A stretch of 64,000 bases of DNA from a virus, in the IMG/VR virus record IMGVR_UViG_3300044801_000206, positions 1 to 64,000 of that record. The stretch is one strand, 5' to 3'. This document shows positions 4,130 through 48,722 of this stretch, piece by piece (position 1 is the stretch's first letter; each line of letters begins with the position of its first letter). The notes under the pieces were generated by a model. The model had not been told where the DNA came from and searched no databases. It was given only the letters and a program-made list of their open reading frames with translations. The position numbers and the translations under genes were made by a program.

Positions 4130-5131
4130 TTGAGCAAGACTTCAATCGAGTGGACCCAGCACACATGGAACCCGACGCGCGGCTGTTCCCGTGTCTCGCG
4201 CGGCTGCGAAAATTGCTATGCGGAACGGATGGCGGGGCGATTTTGCGGGCCAAAATTAATGGACAGCGACAAGGCCCCATTTGAAGGATTTGTGAAAATA
4301 ACCGGCGCCGGGCCGCGTTGGACCGGCAAGGTGGAGCTGATCGAGTCCAAATTGGAGGAACCGATCCACTGGCGGAAGCCGCGCCTAGTCTTTGTAAATT
4401 CGATGAGCGATCTATTTCACGAGGCGCTGTCTCTCCGCGACAAGGAGCGAATTTTCCGCGTGATGCTGAGCAGCCCGAGGCACACGTTCCAGATCCTAAC
4501 CAAACGGGCGAAGTTGATGTCTGAACAGGTCCCGCAGATTATGTACCGCATCTTCGGCCCCCACTGGACCATGCCCGGATTCATTCACCTAGGCGTCTCC
4601 GTCGAAGACCAGGAGACCGCCGACGAGCGCATCCCGCACTTGCTGCGGACGCCGGCGGCGGTACGGTTCGTCAGTTACGAGCCGGCGCTCGGGCCGGTGG
4701 ATTTCCGCAAATGGTTTGACGAAGGCCTGGAGTGCAATTACTGCGAGATGTGGCGCGGCACGGAAGCGGAGGCGAAGCTTGACGGCAACGAGGAAGATCC
4801 TGGATTTCTGTGCCCAAATTGCGGTGAGTCGTGCGCCCACTTGCCGGTGGACGAGCGTTTAGACCAAGTGATCATTGGTGGTGAATCCGGAGCAGGAGGC
4901 CGCCCGTTCGATTTGCAGTGGGCACGGAACACCATTGCGCAGTGCAAGGCGGCGGGAATTTTGTGTTTTTTTAAGCAGGCAGGGTCAAACGCAATGCTTA
5001 ACAATAAACGTCTACTCCTTCATGATAGAAAAGGCGGAGAACTATCTGAACTGCCCGCCGATTTGAATGTTAGGGAGATTCCGAATGCCCTACAAAGATC
5101 CACAGAAGGCAAAGGAAAATCAACGTCATGA
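4130..5131 (+). CDS. Phage Gp37/Gp68 family protein (radical-SAM-like)
   Basis: A 333-residue protein with the hallmark opening of the phage Gp37/Gp68 (DUF5131) family: I-E-W-T-x-x-T-W-N-P followed by cysteines 19, 26 and 29 (C-x6-C-x2-C) and then Y-A-E. The start is a TTG at 4130 with a strong AGGAGG upstream. A zinc-ribbon insertion (C-x2-C ... C-x2-C-x3-C) lies around residues 203-240. The biochemical function of this family is not settled. The stop codon TGA lies where the end of the decayed TnpB element begins, so the natural C-terminus has probably been replaced by the insertion. Confidence 0.85.
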   Translation: MSKTSIEWTQHTWNPTRGCSRVSRGCENCYAERMAGRFCGPKLMDSDKAPFEGFVKITGAGPRWTGKVELIESKLEEPIHWRKPRLVFVNSMSDLFHEALSLRDKERIFRVMLSSPRHTFQILTKRAKLMSEQVPQIMYRIFGPHWTMPGFIHLGVSVEDQETADERIPHLLRTPAAVRFVSYEPALGPVDFRKWFDEGLECNYCEMWRGTEAEAKLDGNEEDPGFLCPNCGESCAHLPVDERLDQVIIGGESGAGGRPFDLQWARNTIAQCKAAGILCFFKQAGSNAMLNNKRLLLHDRKGGELSELPADLNVREIPNALQRSTEGKGKSTS

Positions 5132-6010
5132 CCCCACGGCTAAAGCCGGGGGCTTGTAACTGAGCCATGCGATACAACTGCACAACCCGCTACGTTCGGG
5201 CACATGACGGCGCCCCTGCCCGCTATTACCCTGGCAGCGTTGATATCCGCGTGCTCGGCGTATCCGCACGCCAAACACCGGAAGGTCGATTGGTTGGGAC
5301 GATTGCGCTTGTCAGTGTACCCGCAAGCGGAGCATTCCCGGCTGGTATTTCTCGGATCAACGGCGAACAGCGGGACACCCGCCAACGCCGCCTTGTACTC
5401 CGTAAACGCCCTCAACTGTGCGAATGCCCAACTATGCAGAACTGCTCGTTGCGGTTTCCTAGCCCTGATCCTGGCCCGAATCCCCGTCAGTTCCTCGACG
5501 GCGATCCCGCGCCAGGTGCGTTCGGCTTTAGCAACGATCTGCTTGGAAATACAGTGGTTCATGTCTTTGGCGAAGCGCGTCTCTTTGCCTGCCAACTTTT
5601 TCAATCGGCGGTTAGCCGATTTCGTTTGTCGCTTCTGAAGTGCGGAGCGCAGTCGCTGATGCCGATGTCGAATCGACTTCAATTTGGAGCCAGAGTACTG
5701 CGTACCGTCGCTATCGCTGGCGATCTGCGCGATACCAAGATCCACCCCCAGAAATTCGGACACATCGGATGGTAGGCGATCTTCTGGATAGCGAATGCCT
5801 GGAATACCTTCTTCTCCCAGGCGAGGACGCTGATCCAATTGCAGGCGGCATTGGCCCTTGCCATCGTCTCCATGAGGGCGGCATGGGGGATCTGGTTCGC
5901 TACCAGTTTTACCTTGGCCGTCAGTTTCATAAACACAGTATAGCACAAAATCGTCTTAACAATACAGGAGGCGGCGCTTCCTCCCCACGCCTGAAGGCGG
6001 GAGCTTCCGC
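5126..6010 (-). mobile_element. Decayed IS200/IS605-type element (tnpB only)
   Basis: The right end is a hairpin of the CCCCACGGCTAAAGCCGGGG type around 5133-5153. The left end has a similar GC-rich stem around 5980-6005 (CTCCCCACGCCTGAAGGCGGGAG). Between them lies a broken tnpB. The right-end hairpin resembles that of the intact element ending at 10002. Boundaries are approximate. Confidence 0.7.
5140..5930 (-). pseudogene. tnpB: TnpB pseudogene, internal deletion and frameshift
   Basis: The N-terminus (M-K-L-T-A-K-V-K-L, start at 5930) is in one frame up to about residue 55. The rest continues in another frame from about 5780 down. Most of the wedge/REC region between them is missing, so the total is about 265 codons instead of 370-400. 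The RuvC parts remain: L-G-V-D-L-G, the I-A-V-E-E-L glutamate, the zinc ribbon C-S-A-C ... C-L-A-C, and H-A-D-I-N-A-A. Nuclease function is probably lost, while the 3' end that would form the RNA scaffold is intact. Confidence 0.8.
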
Positions 6011-6377: not shown

Positions 6378-8048
6378 TTAAGCTTTCGTTTCGAGCAGAG
6401 CCTTTACCAGCAGCGGGAAGACAAGCGTGTAATCACCCACGACTTCCGCGTTCATCCCGACAATCTCGCCTTTAGCTCCACCCTCTTTCTCTGGTGGCCA
6501 GAATTTTCCCCACGAGCGCCCCTCCGAGTTTTTTAGAATCAGCGAGTTGGCGGCGAAATTGTGGGTGCCGGCAACCGTCATGTCGAACGTTTCGTCTTCT
6601 CCCCAGTACTCCACTGACTCGACAATGTGATTAGCCTCTCGTTGCTCCTTGTAGGCTACGTTGAACGGCATCAGCCTATCGGCCGGCTTTAGTTCGGATA
6701 GCTTTTTATATGAGCCGTCGCGCATTAGAAATTGGTGATCGGCCGAGGCAATCACTTCTCCCGTGCATCTTCTGGATCGCTTAGTCTCGTTTCCTTTAGA
6801 TACCCAGGAGTACTTCACTTTGTAAAGCGTCTTCTTGCCGGACGGGAATACGGCCGATACATTCGACAGGACAATCCGCTTCTTTTCGCGGTCGTATGAA
6901 TAAACTGGGAACCCACTCTTGCCGACCAGTTCTCGGATTGGAATTCCGCGTGGATACATCTTTAGATTGCGGGGCGTCTCAATTAGGGTATCCCCGTGAA
7001 GGCAGTAGCTGCAACCGCTAAGTCCTGCATTTGTACCAGATGCGTCACAGATCCGCACGGCATATTTGAACCGCATAATCAACGATTTAGGTTCTGCTCC
7101 GTACTCTGTCAGGATGTCGAACGAGGGCCCGACCTGTTGCGCCCAATTCCTCGGAACTCCACCGCCCAAGGTGACGACTCCGCACGATTCCTTATGCTGC
7201 TTGATGAGATCCGCGTATCGTTCCCAATCCCCGAACGCATCGAACATAAGCGTGGGCTTGTCCGCCTTCTCGCGCAGCACATTCTGCGCGTAGAAATCCA
7301 AGCCAATCTCGGAGTCGCTGAAGGACGGTATGAAAATTGGGATGCCGTTTCTTTGAGCAGCGTGCAGCAAGCCATTCTCTTTTGGGAAGTCCTTGTTCAA
7401 CCGCTCACCGAGCAACTCCGTAATGTCGGCGCTCGTTATCAGCGTGTCGGGGTCCAACGAATCGGTGATCTCCCGCAGGATGTCGAACCCTTCGTTCAGC
7501 GAGTCTTCCAGTTCAATGCAATCGTAAATCCGGTTGTAGCCTTTAGCGTAAAACCAATTGTCGTCAACCGCTTCGGGGTCATCAACTTGGAACATCGGTC
7601 GGCCGCGCTCAACGCTGAAGCTGTGGGTGATGACGGAGCCGGTGCTGACAATGCAATGCACCAACTCGTGGTCAATGAGGTCGGCAATTAGAGGACTCAG
7701 CGGCGTGGCATTCCCTGAGAGCGTCAAGACCGTAAAGCATTTCTTGTCCTTTGCCATTGCTTGAAGGACTTCGAGCGCTTTGCCAACATCCCGACCGCCG
7801 GCTGTCGTCCCGCCCATTGCCTCCGCCAACCCGCTGAACGTGTGGATCTCATCGGCGTGGGGGAAGGCGATAGCTTGCATGCCATGCTCTTTGCCGTGGC
7901 CCAACTTGCGTTCATGAGGTTTCGGTAGCCGCGTCACCGGCGGAGCGATAGCCTGCTGCGGAGAGTCCACAGTCTTTCCTGCTTCAGCCTTCGGCTTGGC
8001 CGGCGCGGCTTTAGGCGGTTCTGGCGGAGGAGCGGTTTTCGGCGGCAT
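6378..8048 (-). CDS. Deoxyhypusine synthase family enzyme interrupted by a mini-intein
   Basis: A 556-residue precursor; the start at 8048 is chosen because the longer frame to 8096 runs into the gene before it. Residues 1-45 are a Pro/Ala/Lys-rich leader. The enzyme part has the family blocks: L-T-L-S-G-N-A near 110, V-S-T-G-S-V-I-T-H near 134, P-S-F-S-D-S-E-I-G, L-G-G-G-V-P-R-N-W, and S-E-G-R-S-W-G-K with the catalytic lysine at 515. The family (NAD-dependent) makes deoxyhypusine on eIF5A in eukaryotes and archaea, or homospermidine-type polyamines in bacteria. An intein occupies residues 349-507, just before the catalytic block. After splicing the enzyme would be about 397 residues. Which substrate it uses is unknown. 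Confidence 0.85.
   Translation of the reverse strand: MPPKTAPPPEPPKAAPAKPKAEAGKTVDSPQQAIAPPVTRLPKPHERKLGHGKEHGMQAIAFPHADEIHTFSGLAEAMGGTTAGGRDVGKALEVLQAMAKDKKCFTVLTLSGNATPLSPLIADLIDHELVHCIVSTGSVITHSFSVERGRPMFQVDDPEAVDDNWFYAKGYNRIYDCIELEDSLNEGFDILREITDSLDPDTLITSADITELLGERLNKDFPKENGLLHAAQRNGIPIFIPSFSDSEIGLDFYAQNVLREKADKPTLMFDAFGDWERYADLIKQHKESCGVVTLGGGVPRNWAQQVGPSFDILTEYGAEPKSLIMRFKYAVRICDASGTNAGLSGCSYCLHGDTLIETPRNLKMYPRGIPIRELVGKSGFPVYSYDREKKRIVLSNVSAVFPSGKKTLYKVKYSWVSKGNETKRSRRCTGEVIASADHQFLMRDGSYKKLSELKPADRLMPFNVAYKEQREANHIVESVEYWGEDETFDMTVAGTHNFAANSLILKNSEGRSWGKFWPPEKEGGAKGEIVGMNAEVVGDYTLVFPLLVKALLETKA
6528..7004 (-). other. Mini-intein in the deoxyhypusine-synthase-like gene
   Basis: A 159-residue intein begins with Cys (C-L-H-G-D-T-L-I, block A). 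Block B is A-S-A-D-H-Q-F-L; block F is M-T-V-A-G-T-H-N-F-A-A-N; the end is L-I-L-K-N followed by Ser as first residue of the C-extein. No homing endonuclease domain fits in this length. The penultimate residue is Lys where His is usual. It splits the exteins at G-C-S-Y / S-E-G-R-S-W-G-K, inside the most conserved part of the enzyme. Confidence 0.85.
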
Positions 8049-8058
8049 CGCCTTTATT

Positions 8059-8256
8059 CTACCGCCGCCCGCGAGTTGATACGCGACGAACTGCACGGCT
8101 AGCTGAAGCGCGTACAGGCAAAGCCCTCATCTTCATGCCGCGGTTCTCCGCTAGCATCTTGTGCGCTTTGGCAGGGCTGGGGGCGCCGGGACGTTTAACG
8201 CGGCCAGAGGCAGCCGCACCGAGAAAAGCTGCCTGTTTTTGGCTGACGATTTTCAT
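8059..8256 (-). CDS. Small basic hypothetical protein
   Basis: A 65-residue Arg/Lys/Ala-rich protein with a strong AAAGGAGG before its ATG (about 8262-8270). It opens M-K-I-V-S-Q-K-Q-A-A-F-L-G-A and contains S-P-A-K-A-H-K-M-L-A-E-N-R-G, a style common in small phage proteins of unknown role. It lies just upstream of the deoxyhypusine-synthase-like gene. The left end of the transposon at 8283 lies immediately beyond its ribosome binding site, so its native promoter may have been displaced. Confidence 0.65.
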   Translation of the reverse strand: MKIVSQKQAAFLGAAASGRVKRPGAPSPAKAHKMLAENRGMKMRALPVRASASRAVRRVSTRGRR

Positions 8257-8382
8257 GACAGACCTCCTTTACCAAGATCTCCGTAAAGCCCCTAGCTTCA
8301 GACATGGGGATATAAGGAGATTCGGCCTTTGGCCGACTGATTTTGCTTGTATTAGATTGCGCATGGCTGTATAATTTGATGA

Positions 8383-8781
8383 GTGGACTACAAGAGCAAC
8401 AACAACGTGGTTTATTCGTGCAAGTACCACGTCATCTGGTGCCCGAAATACAGGCGTTCCGTGCTTGTGAAGCCGGTCGATGCGCGGCTGAAAACACTCA
8501 TCCGCGAAACAGCCGCCGCGCGACGATGCGAAGTCATCGAGTTGGAAGTGATGCCCGATCATGTCCATCTGCTGGTCGAGGTAGATCCACAGTACGGCGT
8601 GCATCGACTCATCCGCGAGATCAAAGGCAGAAGTTCCCATGCGCTGCGCAAGGAGTTCCCTTCTCTCGCTACTCGCCTGCCAACCTTGTGGACCAATTCG
8701 TATTTTGTTTCGACGGTTGGCGGTTCACCGCTGGCCATCGTCAAGCAATACATCGAGAACCAGAAGCGGAGCGAACGTTGA
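8383..8781 (+). CDS. tnpA: IS200/IS605 transposase TnpA (HUH, Y1)
   Basis: A 132-residue single-strand DNA transposase starting at GTG 8383, preceded by a TATAAT-like box (8370-8375). It has the family signature [10 protein letters not shown] near the start, the metal-binding H-V-H-L-L (HUH) around residue 64 and the catalytic tyrosine in Q-Y-I-E-N-Q near the end. Length is normal and no damage is visible. It cuts and joins the hairpin ends of the element. Its TGA overlaps the TTG start of tnpB. Confidence 0.93.
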
Positions 8782-9971
8782 AACAGCTTCGCAAGGTGTA
8801 CCGATTCCGCATGGAGCCGAACGGCGCGCAACGCGAGGCGCTGTCGCGCATGGCGGGCGCCCGCCGATTTGTGTGGAACTGGGCGCTGGCACAGCGCAAG
8901 GCGCACTACCTTGAGATTGGCAAGGGACTTCCGGCCGCCGAGCTTTCGAGCCGATTCACCGGGTTGAAGCAGCAACCGGAAACCGCGTGGCTTCAGGATG
9001 TGGACTCGCAGGCCATGCAACAGGTGCTTGCCGATCTTCAGCGAGCCTACCGGAACTTCTTTGAGAAGCGGGCGCGATTTCCGCGTTTTAAGAGCCGGAA
9101 GCGGGATCAGGCGCGGTTTCGGATTCCGCAGCGTGTCAAGATTGCGGATGGCCGGGTCTATGTGCCCAAGGTTGGATCGGTTGGGATTCGCCAGTCTCAA
9201 TCTATCGACGGTGCGACCAAGAGCGCGACGTTCAAGCGAGATGTCACCGGCAACTGGGATGTGACGCTGGTGACTGAGTTCACGATGCCCGATACGGCGT
9301 TGCCGCCTGCCGATCCGGCCCGCGTGGTGGGCGTGGACCTCGGGCTGAAAGACTTCGCCGTGCTGTCGGACGGCGAACAGGTTCCGGTACCGCAGTTCTT
9401 CCGCAAGTCGGAACGGAAGTTGCACAAGGCGCAGCGCGTGTTCAGCCGCCGCGAGAAGGGCAGCAAGCGGAGGCTGCGTGCGAAGCGGAATGTATCGCTG
9501 GTCCACCGCAAGGTGGCGAACCAGAGGAAGGATTTCGTTCACAAGTTCACCACCGGATTGGTGGAGAAGTACGATGGGATCTGCATCGAGGATCTGTGTG
9601 TGAAGGGCCTTGCGAAAACCAAGCTGGCTGGACACGCGAAATCGGTCCTCGATGCTGCATTCGGAGAGACGCGGCGGCAACTTGAATACAAGACCGTGTG
9701 GAACCGTAAACATCTCGCGGTGATCGACCGCTGGTATCCATCCAGCAAGACCTGTCACGTGTGCGGCGCGGTCAACGCGGCGCTCACGCTGGCGGATCGA
9801 AGTTGGACGTGTTCGGGTTGCGGTGCTCATCTCGATAGGGATCGGAATGCGTCTCTCAACATAAAAACCGAAGGGCTAATCATTCTCGTCGCGGGGCACG
9901 CGAAGAGTTTAAACGCACAGGGAGCCGGTGTAAGACCTCCGCAGTTGGAGGCAGTCGGTGTTGAACTGTGA
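8778..9971 (+). CDS. tnpB: RNA-guided nuclease TnpB
   Basis: A 397-residue TnpB starting at TTG 8778 inside the tnpA stop (TTGA overlap), which fits the N-terminus [10 protein letters not shown]. The RuvC triad is complete: V-D-L-G-L (Asp), C-I-E-D-L (Glu) and D-R-D-R-N-A (Asp). The zinc ribbon is C-H-V-C ... C-S-G-C. TnpB proteins cut DNA matching the guide at the end of their omega RNA, which comes from the 3' part of the gene and the right end of the element. The gene looks intact. Confidence 0.93.
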
Positions 9972-33318: not shown

Positions 33319-34443
33319 ATGCGGCTCACCTACAAATACCGGCTGATCCCCACGAAGGCGCAGGCAGTCTTCCTGTCCGGCGAGCTTCGCGATGCCTGTT
33401 CGCTCTACAACGCCGCTCTCGAGGAGCGCATCGGGGCCTGGAGAACATGCCGCAAGAGCATCAACTACTACGACCAGGCGAACCAGTTGAAGGCGATGCG
33501 CGCCGACGGCTGCCTGACACTGGCGAATTTCTCGTGCTGCCAGGATGTGTTGCGCCGGGTCGATAAGACGTACAAGGCGTTCTACGCTCGCGTGAGGCGT
33601 GGTGAGACGCCAGGCTTCCCGCGCTATCGTCCCGCCCGCAGGTACGACAGCATCACCTTCCCGTCCTATGGCGACGGATGCCGTCTGCTGCCTAACGGTA
33701 AGCTGCGCATCCAGGGCGCGGGGCACATCAAGGTCAAATTGCACAGGCCGCTGGAGGGAGCCGTCAAGACCGTGACAGTTAAACGTGAGGCTGGCCGGTG
33801 GTTCGTAATCTTCAGTGTGGAGCGGGATGCCGCTCCGCTTCCGGTCAGTAATCGCGCTACGGGAATCGATGTCGGACTGAACAATTTCGCCGTACTGGCA
33901 GACGGCACGGAGATTCAGAACCCGTGCTACTACCGAAAGGCACAGGCCCGGTTGCGCTGTGCTCAGCGGAAGGTGGACCGGCGGAAGAAAGGCGGCATCC
34001 GGCGGCGCAAAGCTGTACGGTTGCTCCAGCGGGCGCATGTCCATGTCGGCAACCAGCGGCGTGACTTCCAGCACAAGCTGTCGCGCCAATTGGTCAACGA
34101 ATACGGTGTGATCGCCGTCGAGGACTTGAACGTGAAGGGGCTCGCTGGTGGGATGCTGGCGAAGTCCGTCCACGATGCCGGATGGTCGATGTTCCTGGGA
34201 ATGATCGCGTACAAGGCTGCGAGCGCCGGACGCGAAGTCATCCAGGTTGACCCGCGTGGCACGAGCCAGACGTGCGTCTGTGGGCAGCGCGTGGCCAAGA
34301 CTCTCGCGGATCGGTGGCACGATTGCCCGGTTTGCGGATTGTCGGCTAGCCGCGATCATGTATCGGCCCTCGTAATTCTTTCCAGAGCCCGGTGCGGGCT
34401 TTCAGGAGCCAACGTAGAGGATGTCGTCTCATGCGTTTCCTGA
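33319..34443 (+). CDS. tnpB: RNA-guided nuclease TnpB
   Basis: A 374-residue TnpB directly after the tnpA stop. The RuvC residues are complete: G-I-D-V-G-L (Asp), A-V-E-D-L (Glu), S-R-D-H (Asp). The zinc ribbon is C-V-C ... C-P-V-C. It is the same family as the edge fragment at 1-194. A detached copy of its last 118 bp of element sequence sits at 21842-21959. Confidence 0.92.
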   Translation: MRLTYKYRLIPTKAQAVFLSGELRDACSLYNAALEERIGAWRTCRKSINYYDQANQLKAMRADGCLTLANFSCCQDVLRRVDKTYKAFYARVRRGETPGFPRYRPARRYDSITFPSYGDGCRLLPNGKLRIQGAGHIKVKLHRPLEGAVKTVTVKREAGRWFVIFSVERDAAPLPVSNRATGIDVGLNNFAVLADGTEIQNPCYYRKAQARLRCAQRKVDRRKKGGIRRRKAVRLLQRAHVHVGNQRRDFQHKLSRQLVNEYGVIAVEDLNVKGLAGGMLAKSVHDAGWSMFLGMIAYKAASAGREVIQVDPRGTSQTCVCGQRVAKTLADRWHDCPVCGLSASRDHVSALVILSRARCGLSGANVEDVVSCVS

Positions 34444-41861: not shown

Positions 41862-43003
41862 GGTAGTGGGTCACTTTGGCCCTTCTGCCGAAACGCCGAC
41901 AACGCTCCTACCGAGCGCGTTCTCGCCTAAAGCGAGAATATTGATGGCCGCGTTGTGATCACGGTTCAAGGATAACCCGCAATGCGGGCATTCATGCCAG
42001 CGATCCGCTAGTCCCTTCGGAACTGTCTCACCACATCGGCTACATCTCTGCGTCGTACCCCTGGGATTCACTGCCACAACATAGCGCCCGGCGCGTTCGG
42101 CCTTGTACGCAAGGTGGAACAGGAGTTGCCCCCAAGCAGCATCTAAAATACTTTTGGCAAGGTATCCCTTCACCATGTTCGAAATCTTCAAATCTTCATG
42201 CGCGATTAGGTCGTAGCGTGCTACCAGAGCCTTCGAAACGTGGTGGCAGAAGTTCTTACGAGCGTCGGCCATCCGCTGATACGCGCGGCGCGTTTGCTCT
42301 TTAGCACGGAGCCGATTCTTACTGCCGCGTTTCTTCCGCGCCAGATTCTTTTGCGCCCGCGCGATCCGCTGTACATGCTGCCGGATGAAGCGCGGATTGG
42401 GAATCTCGCTACCATCCGATAATGTGGCAAAGGTGGTCAACCCAACGTCAATGCCTACAGGATGCGACACAACACATTTCCCTGGCGCTGGGCCAATGTC
42501 GCACGTCACACGCCCCACCCATTTCTTGCCAACCAGTTTGATTGTGGCCTGCTTGATAGTTCCTTTTATCTCCTGGTGCGCCTTGAATCGCACATGGCCC
42601 AGATTCGGAACCAGCACTGCGTCACCGTGAATTCGTGGGCTATGCCACGCGAATGATGTGTAGCGGTCCACCGACCGGAAACGCGGGAATCCAGGATCCT
42701 CACCGCTTTTGCAACGGCGGAAGAACGCTTTGAATGCCCGGTCGATCCGCCGTAGAGGTTCACGTTGAATGTCTGATGCGATCACGGAAAACTGTGGATC
42801 TTCACGTAGACGCGCCAATTCCGCGCACTGGTCGTATAGGCTGATGCTTTTGTGTTGAAGTTTCCAAGCGTCCCGGCGTTCCTGGAGAGCCGCGTTGTAC
42901 GTTTCCTGCGAGTCCAACAGAATACGCGCGAACGCTTCCTTCTGCTTCCGCGTCGGCTTCAATCGCAACTCGTAAGATCGCATCATTCAAACTGACCCAC
43001 TAC
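41862..43003 (-). mobile_element. tnpB-only element with inverted ends and flanking direct repeats
   Basis: A very compact element: about 17 bp before the tnpB ATG and about 10 bp after its stop. The two ends form a 15-bp inverted repeat with one mismatch (41863-41877 and 42989-43003, core GTAGTGGGTCA). ACTGGTTGTTG occurs on both sides (41851-41861 and 43002-43012), so the insertion has an 11-bp flanking direct repeat. It sits in the last codons of the holin-like gene: removing it restores a frame ending N-N-Q-L-P-P-A-E. Confidence 0.8.
41871..42986 (-). CDS. tnpB: RNA-guided nuclease TnpB (solo)
   Basis: A 371-residue TnpB from a third family, without a tnpA. RuvC residues are complete: G-I-D-V-G-L (Asp), A-H-E-D-L (Glu), L-N-R-D-H-N (Asp). 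The zinc ribbon is C-S-R-C ... C-P-H-C. ATG 42986 is used (a second ATG follows at once). The last 70 bp contain the hairpin TTCTCGC-CTAAA-GCGAGAA, probably part of the omega RNA. A detached copy of this end is at 48569-48650. It needs a TnpA in trans to move. Confidence 0.92.
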   Translation of the reverse strand: MMRSYELRLKPTRKQKEAFARILLDSQETYNAALQERRDAWKLQHKSISLYDQCAELARLREDPQFSVIASDIQREPLRRIDRAFKAFFRRCKSGEDPGFPRFRSVDRYTSFAWHSPRIHGDAVLVPNLGHVRFKAHQEIKGTIKQATIKLVGKKWVGRVTCDIGPAPGKCVVSHPVGIDVGLTTFATLSDGSEIPNPRFIRQHVQRIARAQKNLARKKRGSKNRLRAKEQTRRAYQRMADARKNFCHHVSKALVARYDLIAHEDLKISNMVKGYLAKSILDAAWGQLLFHLAYKAERAGRYVVAVNPRGTTQRCSRCGETVPKGLADRWHECPHCGLSLNRDHNAAINILALGENALGRSVVGVSAEGPK

Positions 43004-45839: not shown

Positions 45840-46079
45840 TCAGGTCTGAAGCAGACCGTAGCCCTTCCAGGTACTAGTACTTCCGTCGGCGCCTGCCGTT
45901 GTACAAATCCAACCAAGGTAGGACGCACCGCCTGCGGCCGGCGCCGTGTTCCAAACGATGTCGCCGATCTTGTAGGGTCCTGTATCTGTGGCCGCCGAAG
46001 GAGCCGCTGTGCCCCAGTATTCGACCAGATTGAGGTCATTGCGATACTGTCGATGTTGCCGATATGGTTCGAGAGCCAT
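45840..46079 (-). CDS. Small structural-type protein
   Basis: A 79-residue protein starting at ATG 46079 with AAGGAG 9 bases upstream. Aromatic and Gly-rich (opening M-A-L-E-P-Y-R-Q-H-R-Q-Y; middle Y-K-I-G-D-I-V-W-N). The G-D-x-V-x-x-x-x-x ... Y-x-G-W-I-C-T-T-A-G pattern is like short carbohydrate-binding or capsid-decoration domains. It ends just before the terminator at 45752-45795 and follows the solitary CRISPR-like repeat. Confidence 0.7.
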   Translation of the reverse strand: MALEPYRQHRQYRNDLNLVEYWGTAAPSAATDTGPYKIGDIVWNTAPAAGGASYLGWICTTAGADGSTSTWKGYGLLQT

Positions 46080-46104
46080 AAGCGTTTCTCCTTACGTGCC
46101 GTTT

Positions 46105-46137
46105 GTTTCAATCCACGCGCCCAACGGAGGGCGTGAC
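46105..46137 (-). CRISPR. Solitary CRISPR-repeat-like unit (type I-C-like), candidate RNA anti-CRISPR
   Basis: On the - strand this 33-nt unit starts GTCACGCCC and ends GCGTGGATTGAAAC, with a CGCCC/GGGCG stem. The terminal GTGGATTGAAAC is a hallmark of type I-C (and some related) CRISPR repeats. There is one copy only: no spacers, no second repeat, no cas gene. It lies in the 62-bp gap between two - strand genes and would be co-transcribed with them. TTACGTGCCG is duplicated on both sides (46092-46101 and 46142-46151). Confidence 0.72.
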
Positions 46138-46141
46138 TTCG

Positions 46142-46600
46142 TTACGTGCCGAGGTATCCGCCGCCGGCCGTGCCCACCAAGTTCTCCATGAGCAGCATTT
46201 CCACGTCGATGAACAACGTGCCAGCGGTCAGGCCGCTGAGGTTGTTGGTGGTCGAGGTGAAGAATGCCTGAAGAGTGTCGGCCGCATAGGTCGCTGCCAA
46301 CGCAGCAGCGGCTGCCGCGAGGAATTGAGTGTCTCCTACGGCGTGGAACACATCGGTAGTCGCCGAGAAGGTGGTTGCCGAACCAGCCGCACAGCCGATC
46401 GAACAGGTGACTGCCGTTTCGCCGCCACCCGTGAAGGCCACGTTGGTTTTCATCCGGACGCTTTTGACGAGCGAACCGATGGGCAACGTGTCCAGGGCGA
46501 CGGTAGCAGTCTTGGCCGCTGCCGTTGCATCGGTGAAGGTCACGGTGTACCGCATCAGGACGGAGCCGGGGCCCATGGTCATCAATTGAGTCTTTGTCAT
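46142..46600 (-). CDS. Capsid-associated hypothetical protein
   Basis: A 152-residue protein starting at ATG 46600 (M-T-K-T-Q-L-M), with GGGAGAAAG upstream; the longer frame to 46813 is a read-through of the capsid gene region. It is Ala/Thr-rich and beta-prone. It directly follows the major capsid gene, which suits a decoration or head-stabilising protein. Its TAA stop lies in the left copy of the 10-bp repeat that flanks the CRISPR-like unit. Confidence 0.7.
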   Translation of the reverse strand: MTKTQLMTMGPGSVLMRYTVTFTDATAAAKTATVALDTLPIGSLVKSVRMKTNVAFTGGGETAVTCSIGCAAGSATTFSATTDVFHAVGDTQFLAAAAAALAATYAADTLQAFFTSTTNNLSGLTAGTLFIDVEMLLMENLVGTAGGGYLGT

Positions 46601-46626: not shown

Positions 46627-47601
46627 TTAGAACAGCGTTGTGCTCGTCAGTTTGAAGCAGGTACGGGCGCCCGGCACCAGCAGCGTGGTTCCTGCGAGGA
46701 ACTGTCCAGCGGTGTCGATGCCCAACTGGGTTCCTTTGAACCCGGTGAACCCGAAGTTGAACAACGGGTTGGCTGAGAAAAACCACTCGATGCCCTCGGA
46801 GCAGAGGCCCCACATGCGGCCGGCGGTCCCGGTTGGCGCGTAGGGGTCCATGACCACTTCGGCCTGATTGACCCGGACGGTAGCAAAGCCAGCTTGCGCC
46901 ACGTCGGAAACCGTGTCCACATGCTGCTGCATCGGTTGCAGCGAATTCCAGACCAGATCCCAGCCGTTACGAGTTGCGGCTACTAGATCCACATGCTTGG
47001 TCCCAACCCAAGCCTGCGTGCAGGCCTTGTTGAGATCCTTCAATGTGAAGCCGGTGAGCGCCGCCGTGTAGGCATTCATGCCGAGGATCACGCCGGCTGC
47101 GGCGATATCTGCTCGGGTGATGCCGCCAATGGTGGTGAAGAGAGTGCCATCATCCACCCACTCTTCGAGGCCCGTCAGGTTGCGGTTGCGGCCTAACGTC
47201 GAAGACGTGAGGTACAAGTCCTGCGCCAGCAACTCAGCCATTTCGGCGGAGGCGTTGGCAAACTTCAAGTCCACTTCGTTGAACACTGCCATGTCGCCGT
47301 CGTTGTTCATGGCGTTGAAGCCAACCAACGGCACATTGACCAGATAGAGACGCATGGGAACTTGCAGAGCAGTTTCCGTCGTCACGATCTGGGAAGGGGC
47401 ACCCTCGCCGGGCCCAACCGCAGCGCCGGCCAGCTTGCCGATGATGAGCGGGCGCTGGACCAGAAGTCCGCCACGGAAGGTGTTGCGCCGCTGCTTTGAC
47501 AACCGTACGAATACGGGGCTTGATTGGTACACCGTGTCGGTGGCCTTCCCCACAATCAGGTTGTGCGTGTAAGCGTTAATGCCCGGAATCGGGACTGCCA
47601 T
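46627..47601 (-). CDS. Major capsid protein
   Basis: A 324-residue protein identified by size, composition and position after the scaffold gene. Features fit the HK97-type fold: a long N-terminal part, L-V-Q-R-P-L-I-I, a spine-helix-like block (M-A-V-F-N-E-V-D-L-K-F-A-N-A-S-A-E-M-A) and a beta-rich C-terminus with K-G-T-Q-L-G-I-D. A clear GGAGAGAC precedes the ATG. No family motif is decisive, so the call rests mainly on the neighbours. Confidence 0.8.
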   Translation of the reverse strand: MAVPIPGINAYTHNLIVGKATDTVYQSSPVFVRLSKQRRNTFRGGLLVQRPLIIGKLAGAAVGPGEGAPSQIVTTETALQVPMRLYLVNVPLVGFNAMNNDGDMAVFNEVDLKFANASAEMAELLAQDLYLTSSTLGRNRNLTGLEEWVDDGTLFTTIGGITRADIAAAGVILGMNAYTAALTGFTLKDLNKACTQAWVGTKHVDLVAATRNGWDLVWNSLQPMQQHVDTVSDVAQAGFATVRVNQAEVVMDPYAPTGTAGRMWGLCSEGIEWFFSANPLFNFGFTGFKGTQLGIDTAGQFLAGTTLLVPGARTCFKLTSTTLF

Positions 47602-48568: not shown

Positions 48569-48650
48569 TTGGGTAGTGGGTCACTTTGGCCCTTCTGCCG
48601 AAACGCCGACAACGCTCCTACCGAGCGCGTTCTCGCCTAAAGCGAGAATA
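48569..48650 (-). ncRNA. Detached TnpB right end / solo omega-RNA-like locus (third family)
   Basis: 82 bp identical to 41859-41940, the 3' end of the solo tnpB at 41871-42986, including the hairpin TTCTCGC-CTAAA-GCGAGAA. It lies 12 bp upstream (in transcription direction) of the other detached end. The region 48557-48722 otherwise shows no gene. Confidence 0.6.
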
Positions 48651-48722
48651 CTGGCTTGATGGTTAAAGCCATCCAATACCTTCTGTCCTTCTCCGAGTTG
48701 GGAAAAGTATCGTAGCATCACG

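Follow-up and report, generated by a model that had tools for sequence, protein, structure and literature searches.

A solitary type I-C CRISPR repeat unit in the head operon of an uncultivated phage, a candidate RNA anti-CRISPR decoy

Introduction

What is a single CRISPR repeat doing between two head genes of a phage, with neither an array nor cas genes around it? The question is raised by a stretch of 64,000 nt (positions 1 to 64,000 of the 66,605-bp virus record IMGVR_UViG_3300044801_000206), hereafter the window, in which a sequence-only reading had singled out a 33-nt unit as a solitary type I-C repeat and a candidate RNA anti-CRISPR. The precedent it invoked, solitary repeats acting as RNA anti-CRISPRs, is documented: RacrIC1, a solitary I-C repeat on a bicistronic mRNA, blocks type I-C immunity and restores phage growth (PMC10651486). 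The SRUFinder set of that study, with a library of 17,823 repeats, comprises 2,103 solitary units on viral sequences, and 83% of prophage units match the CRISPR subtype of the host (PMC10651486). A recent review describes it as an enigma that viruses have widely taken up pieces of CRISPR RNA as inhibitors but, apparently, no Cas proteins (PMC11656645).

Classification and features

The unit and the genes around it are as follows (coordinates are those of the window).

46105..46137, minus strand: solitary type I-C CRISPR repeat unit, 33 nt, GTCACGCCCTCCGTTGGGCGCGTGGATTGAAAC
46116..46135, minus strand: stem-loop of the unit, with C3-G22, mismatch A4.C21, C5-G20 to C9-G16 and loop TCCGTT
46142..46600, minus strand: upstream gene, head-region protein of 152 aa, no family match, about 43% identical in three related phages
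45840..46079, minus strand: downstream gene, 79 aa, with homologs at 46-49% identity in two related phages and weak matches to families of head-decoration and tail-fibre proteins
46627..47601, minus strand: major capsid protein, 324 aa (phrog_9953; NCBIfam capsid_maj_Podo)

The unit was located on the minus strand at 46105-46137, as had been claimed, and is present as a single copy in the window, even when 3 mismatches are allowed (0 expected from shuffles), and as one copy in the whole record. A record-wide search at one mismatch gave no similar tail elsewhere, and no full or partial repeat lies within 100 bp of the unit, which bears out the reported absence of an array. Rfam gave no match at the unit. 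It is intergenic and occupies a gap of 62 bp, as the sequence-only reading had it, bounded by the stop codon of the upstream gene (46142-46144) and the ATG of the downstream gene (46079). Both genes lie on the same strand and have homologs in related phages, and the orientation of the unit is sense relative to the operon.

An architecture score was built from a GTC head, a 6-bp stem, a loop of 4-7 nt and an GTGGATTGAAAC tail, with a maximum of 21. The unit scores 20 and the second-best place in the window 17; the peak in 40 Markov-simulated windows was 16-17, and scores of at least 20 are expected by chance about 7e-5 times per window. The unit was compared with repeats collected from plasmid loci, at most of which I-C cas5c, cas8c and cas7c are annotated (one member of this panel, L010, is an array contig without annotation). 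Array repeats from eight panel loci agree with the unit in the GTC head and in the stem layout, and end in the GTGGATTGAAAC tail or in a version of it that differs by one base; other repeat classes were found at the I-C loci of Deinococcus, Thermus and Streptomyces. The match of head, stem layout and tail to array repeats beside annotated I-C cas genes upholds the assignment to type I-C. Judged on its sequence, the unit is a genuine solitary type I-C repeat and chance is excluded as its source; it is an addition to a class of solitary I-C repeats that was already described.

Among the repeats compared, the closest array-borne ones are 29/33 identical to the unit (about 88%), and one such array (L050) adjoins genes 51-52% identical to I-C cas7c and cas1c. 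The closest solitary viral units are 30/33 identical. The I-C array repeats of Legionella, Pseudomonas aeruginosa and Chlorobium have the same base as the unit at 26 of 27 non-loop positions, the only difference being A4 for G4; they have a loop of 5 nt and stand in arrays, whereas the unit has a 6-nt loop, the A4.C21 mismatch and no array. The exact 33-mer had no match in viral collections or in about 85,000 species genomes, nor had an exact-stem pattern, which was poorly chosen because it fixed the unusual A4/C21. Searches of INPHARED with I-C repeats returned fecal contigs with arrays, and matches that were mostly partial and lay within annotated genes, with no clear solitary unit in a phage of known host. 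Like the solitary viral units of the SRUFinder set, the unit is intergenic, consists of one full repeat and has no partial repeats nearby; the cut-off of that set is 90% identity / 41.1 bits, and the best array repeat compared here falls just under the identity threshold (PMC10651486).

The unit keeps the 12-nt tail and the 3-nt head perfectly. Of the I-C 3' end and central stem that had been reported for it, the tail is as described and the stem is imperfect: at its base C3-G22 is kept and the next pair is broken, with A4 opposite C21, where canonical I-C repeats carry G-C or A-U. The canonical fold of the unit was computed at -10.2 kcal/mol and a near-equal shifted register, in which TCACGC pairs with GCGTGG, at -11.1 kcal/mol. 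Other intact I-C units fold at -10.5 to -18.1 kcal/mol, most at -12 or below, and the unit with G4 in place of A4 would reach -15.6 kcal/mol. The A4.C21 combination recurs in one other solitary viral unit (L074), whose locus has no protein similarity to the window.

Genome properties of the phage

The genes run in the same direction in the order major capsid protein, 152-aa protein, 79-aa protein and 394-aa protein, and this order is kept in related phages, which were found by way of the major capsid protein. No promoter-like site was detected near the unit in a sigma-70 scan, and transcription of the gap is inferred from its position. The reported lack of cas genes is corroborated: tblastn with the I-C proteins Cas5c, Cas8c, Cas7c, Cas1c and Cas3 gave no match, and a PADLOC scan of 32 likely proteins of the window gave only two candidate-defence families, PDC-M41B and PDC-M30B.

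The phage has an unusual load of TnpB-family genes, three of them full-length (41871-42986, minus strand; 33319-34443, plus strand; 8343-9971, plus strand) and three present as remnants (3-152, 5212-5763 and 48584-48664). A relation of the unit to these genes was rejected, no copy or near copy being present near any of them. The window also encodes a 572-aa protein in which an intein splicing domain comes after a deoxyhypusine synthase domain (6378-8096, minus strand) and a DUF5131 gene of the phage Gp37/Gp68 family (4130-5131, plus strand). Relatives of the TnpB and DUF5131 proteins were uninformative as to the host.

Insertion of the unit

A 13-nt direct repeat around the unit, missed by the earlier reading, marks it as an insertion, with the following features.

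46139..46151, minus strand: upstream copy of a 13-nt flanking direct repeat (CGGCACGTAACGA), containing the stop codon of the upstream gene
46089..46101, minus strand: downstream copy of the 13-nt repeat (CGGCACGTAAGGA), overlapping the Shine-Dalgarno of the downstream gene
46102..46138, minus strand: inserted 37 nt between the direct repeats, consisting of A, the 33-nt unit and AAA

The two copies of the direct repeat, CGGCACGTAA(C/G)GA, agree at 12/13 positions; 1 nt separates the upstream copy from the unit, and 3 nt separate the unit from the downstream copy. When the downstream flank was shuffled 2,000 times, a similarity this high never arose. In two related phages, whose major capsid proteins are 70-72% identical, the same gap is 21 nt long and lacks the unit, and no unit is present anywhere in their records. 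The reading frames on both sides and the ribosome site are intact despite the insertion, and nothing was replaced. The simplest reading is that an ancestral gap of about 12 nt received an insert of 37 nt and that 13 nt were duplicated in the process, an outcome expected of template switching; the insertion looks recent.

Flanking duplications are not general among solitary units. Of the first 29 examined, only those of the window and of locus L055 stand out, the latter with a duplication of 9 nt. This duplication has the stop codon of the upstream reading frame at its end, as has the exact 10-nt core of the window's duplication. When 60-nt flanks were taken, L080 and, more weakly, L061 joined them, so that 4 of 35 score at least 9, against 0.4 expected.

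Two other modes of entry were rejected for this unit. A staggered cut by Cas1-Cas2 should duplicate about one repeat length (about 32 nt), not the 13 nt seen, which speaks against off-target insertion by these proteins. Integration of a repeat-spacer circle with duplication of a full spacer fits L080; it does not fit the window, where the duplication is 13 nt and no TTC lies at 33-36 nt.

Other solitary I-C units

IMG/VR was scanned for I-C repeats whose stems are canonical, which gave 35 and 19 stretches, most with a single unit and no second repeat within 200 bp; in 28 of the 33 records searched whole, exactly one tail motif was found. About 37 solitary I-C units were collected, nearly all in IMG/VR contigs. 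Some phages have two or three scattered units: IMGVR_UViG_3300031673_000079 has three (L041:6125, L043:358 and L043:955), two of which share the upstream sequence gtgatatcttcaRtatctgcg, and IMGVR_UViG_3300020195_000003 has two (L053:1026 and 1604). Outside viruses, a single I-C repeat is present on an Azospirillum oryzae plasmid (NZ_CP054618.1, L006:3001-3030), in a 6-kb stretch with no annotated cas genes and no second repeat.

Placement in a capsid or head operon recurs among the units, whether or not it is enriched: one has a head protease/major head gene on one side and a decoration gene on the other (L047), one precedes a neck or minor head gene (L059), and one follows a portal gene (L064). 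At L059:1775-1825 two further copies of the unit's 8-nt tail, ATTGAAAC, follow in tandem and extend into the beginning of the next gene.

Function of the unit

The explanation that we consider likeliest, at roughly an even chance and by analogy with RacrIC1, is that a solitary I-C repeat was taken up by the phage and acts as an RNA anti-CRISPR decoy. In type I-C systems, Cas5c cuts the repeat, leaves an 11-nt 5' handle and remains on the 3' hairpin (PMC5965380). The mRNA of the head operon would carry the hairpin of the unit, and Cas5c of the host would bind it and, by analogy with this handle, cut about 11 nt before the 3' end of the unit, after position 22, between 46116 and 46115. The enzyme would then remain attached to the upstream fragment, whose end carries the hairpin, so that Cas5c (and Cas7) would be tied up on phage mRNA without a useful guide, and the predicted cut would spare the ribosome site of the 79-aa gene. 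Self-targeting through the RNA of the unit would not be expected, since what comes before the stretch that could pair is the repeat handle and no TTC PAM, which is also the case in a host array.

A decoy function is made plausible by RacrIC1 itself, which comes from a Bifidobacterium pseudocatenulatum prophage. Both are solitary I-C repeats in a mobile element without cas genes, and both have the I-C stem-loop and tail. RacrIC1 lies in a polycistronic transcript and the unit within an operon. RacrIC1 adjoins acrIC5 and has a mapped transcript and a demonstrated inhibitory effect (PMC10651486); the unit differs in its head-operon setting, its broken stem pair and its flanking duplication. The decoy is also favored by the near-maximal architecture score, rarely reached by chance, in a layout common to I-C array repeats, by the units in head operons of other phages (L047, L059 and L064), and by the intact neighboring frames and ribosome site. 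Several points argue against it. The A4.C21 mismatch weakens the stem near its base, and a mutation of the stem base abolished RacrIF1 (PMC10651486). There is no promoter-like site near the unit by the sigma-70 scan, and a late operon, which would be expressed once the CRISPR attack of the host has begun, is an odd place for an early defense blocker. No relative carries the unit, and no known anti-CRISPR gene was recognized beside it.

The main rival, somewhat unlikely in our estimate, is a passive scar: a repeat of a host array captured by template switching or recombination, tolerated, without function and already decaying. The flanking duplication, the absence of the unit from relatives and the broken A4.C21 pair would all be expected of such a scar, and solitary I-C units elsewhere show signs of array recombination (see below). 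A decaying scar is less easily reconciled with the perfectly kept tail and head, and the presence of units in many unrelated viral contigs, some with two or three scattered copies, suggests usefulness.

It is improbable that the unit is a cis-acting site, at which, in hosts with type I-C, binding or cutting of the head-operon mRNA by Cas5c between the two genes would shift their relative expression, as a sensor or processing site. The sense orientation and the position directly before a ribosome site agree with it, and 7 of 27 solitary units, the window's included, precede a Shine-Dalgarno and start codon on the same strand, against 4% of random places in the same contigs; intergenic placement alone raises this count, however, the same- and opposite-strand numbers are 7 and 3, and some solitary units are antisense to their operons. 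We know of no precedent for such a site.

A mini-array, in which the unit and the following 35 nt or so would serve as a guide against competing phages, is contradicted and was rejected as highly improbable. Virus-borne mini-CRISPR arrays do exist (PMC6858448); they resemble the unit in having a host-type repeat in a virus without cas genes, but contain two or more repeats with a spacer between them, mostly directed against related viruses. Here there is one repeat, no second one, full or partial, was found, and the next 35 nt consist of the phage's own duplicated sequence, the ribosome site and the start of the next gene. Least likely of all is chance or a non-CRISPR hairpin such as a translation or mRNA-stability element, with which the unexceptional fold energy (z -1.16) would agree, and against which stand the low chance expectation, the joint fit of head, stem layout and tail to I-C repeats, and the same gap in relatives without the unit.

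Origin of solitary units

One solitary unit retains what may be a trace of its origin.

8764-8795, minus strand, IMGVR_UViG_3300032053_000217: solitary I-C unit of locus L080

Around this unit lies an exact direct repeat of 34 nt, a spacer length, giving the order spacer-repeat-spacer, and the left copy is directly preceded by TTC, the I-C PAM. The duplicated sequence is part of a broken transposase gene, which we take from its translation to be of the IS3 type. Such a structure is what recombination of a spacer-repeat unit of an array with its protospacer would leave.

The spacing recurs. In 10 of 37 solitary units (L041, L045, L046, L048, L051, L061, L067, L080, L085 and L088) the upstream sequence has a TTC that ends at a distance of 33-36 nt, where 2.5 are expected, about a fourfold excess (p about 2e-5 by shifting the range of distances), in a small sample and in a test framed after L080 had been seen. 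Leaving out L080 gives 9/36 (p about 1e-4), and leaving out the related loci L041 and L043 as well gives 8/33 (p about 7e-4). TTC is the most enriched of the 64 trinucleotides at this distance (5.0-fold, the next being 2.8-fold). AAC, the end that a lost upstream repeat would have left, is found there in 0 of 37 and shows no enrichment, which argues against decayed arrays.

The TTC spacing together with L080 suggests array recombination as the origin of some solitary units. Targeted protospacer DNA would recombine with the spacer-repeat of the host array that matches it, or be repaired on that template, and the event would leave a repeat one spacer length downstream of the PAM. More tentatively, and at less than an even chance, the solitary repeats of phages, possibly including that of the window, are by-products of CRISPR attack that could later serve as RNA anti-CRISPRs. 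No TTC lies 33-36 nt upstream of the window's unit: the insertion with its flanking duplication fits such an origin, the PAM does not, and because it is absent array recombination is only a possible origin here.

Conclusion

With this unit a well-supported I-C repeat mimic is known from an uncultivated phage lineage, and it is clear that head operons can harbor such mimics. The wider pattern of PAM spacing matters more than this single unit. If the proposed origin is true, the PAM-spaced position and the exact spacer-repeat-spacer case would give solitary repeats a simple and testable source, and the phage would owe its decoy to the immune attack itself.
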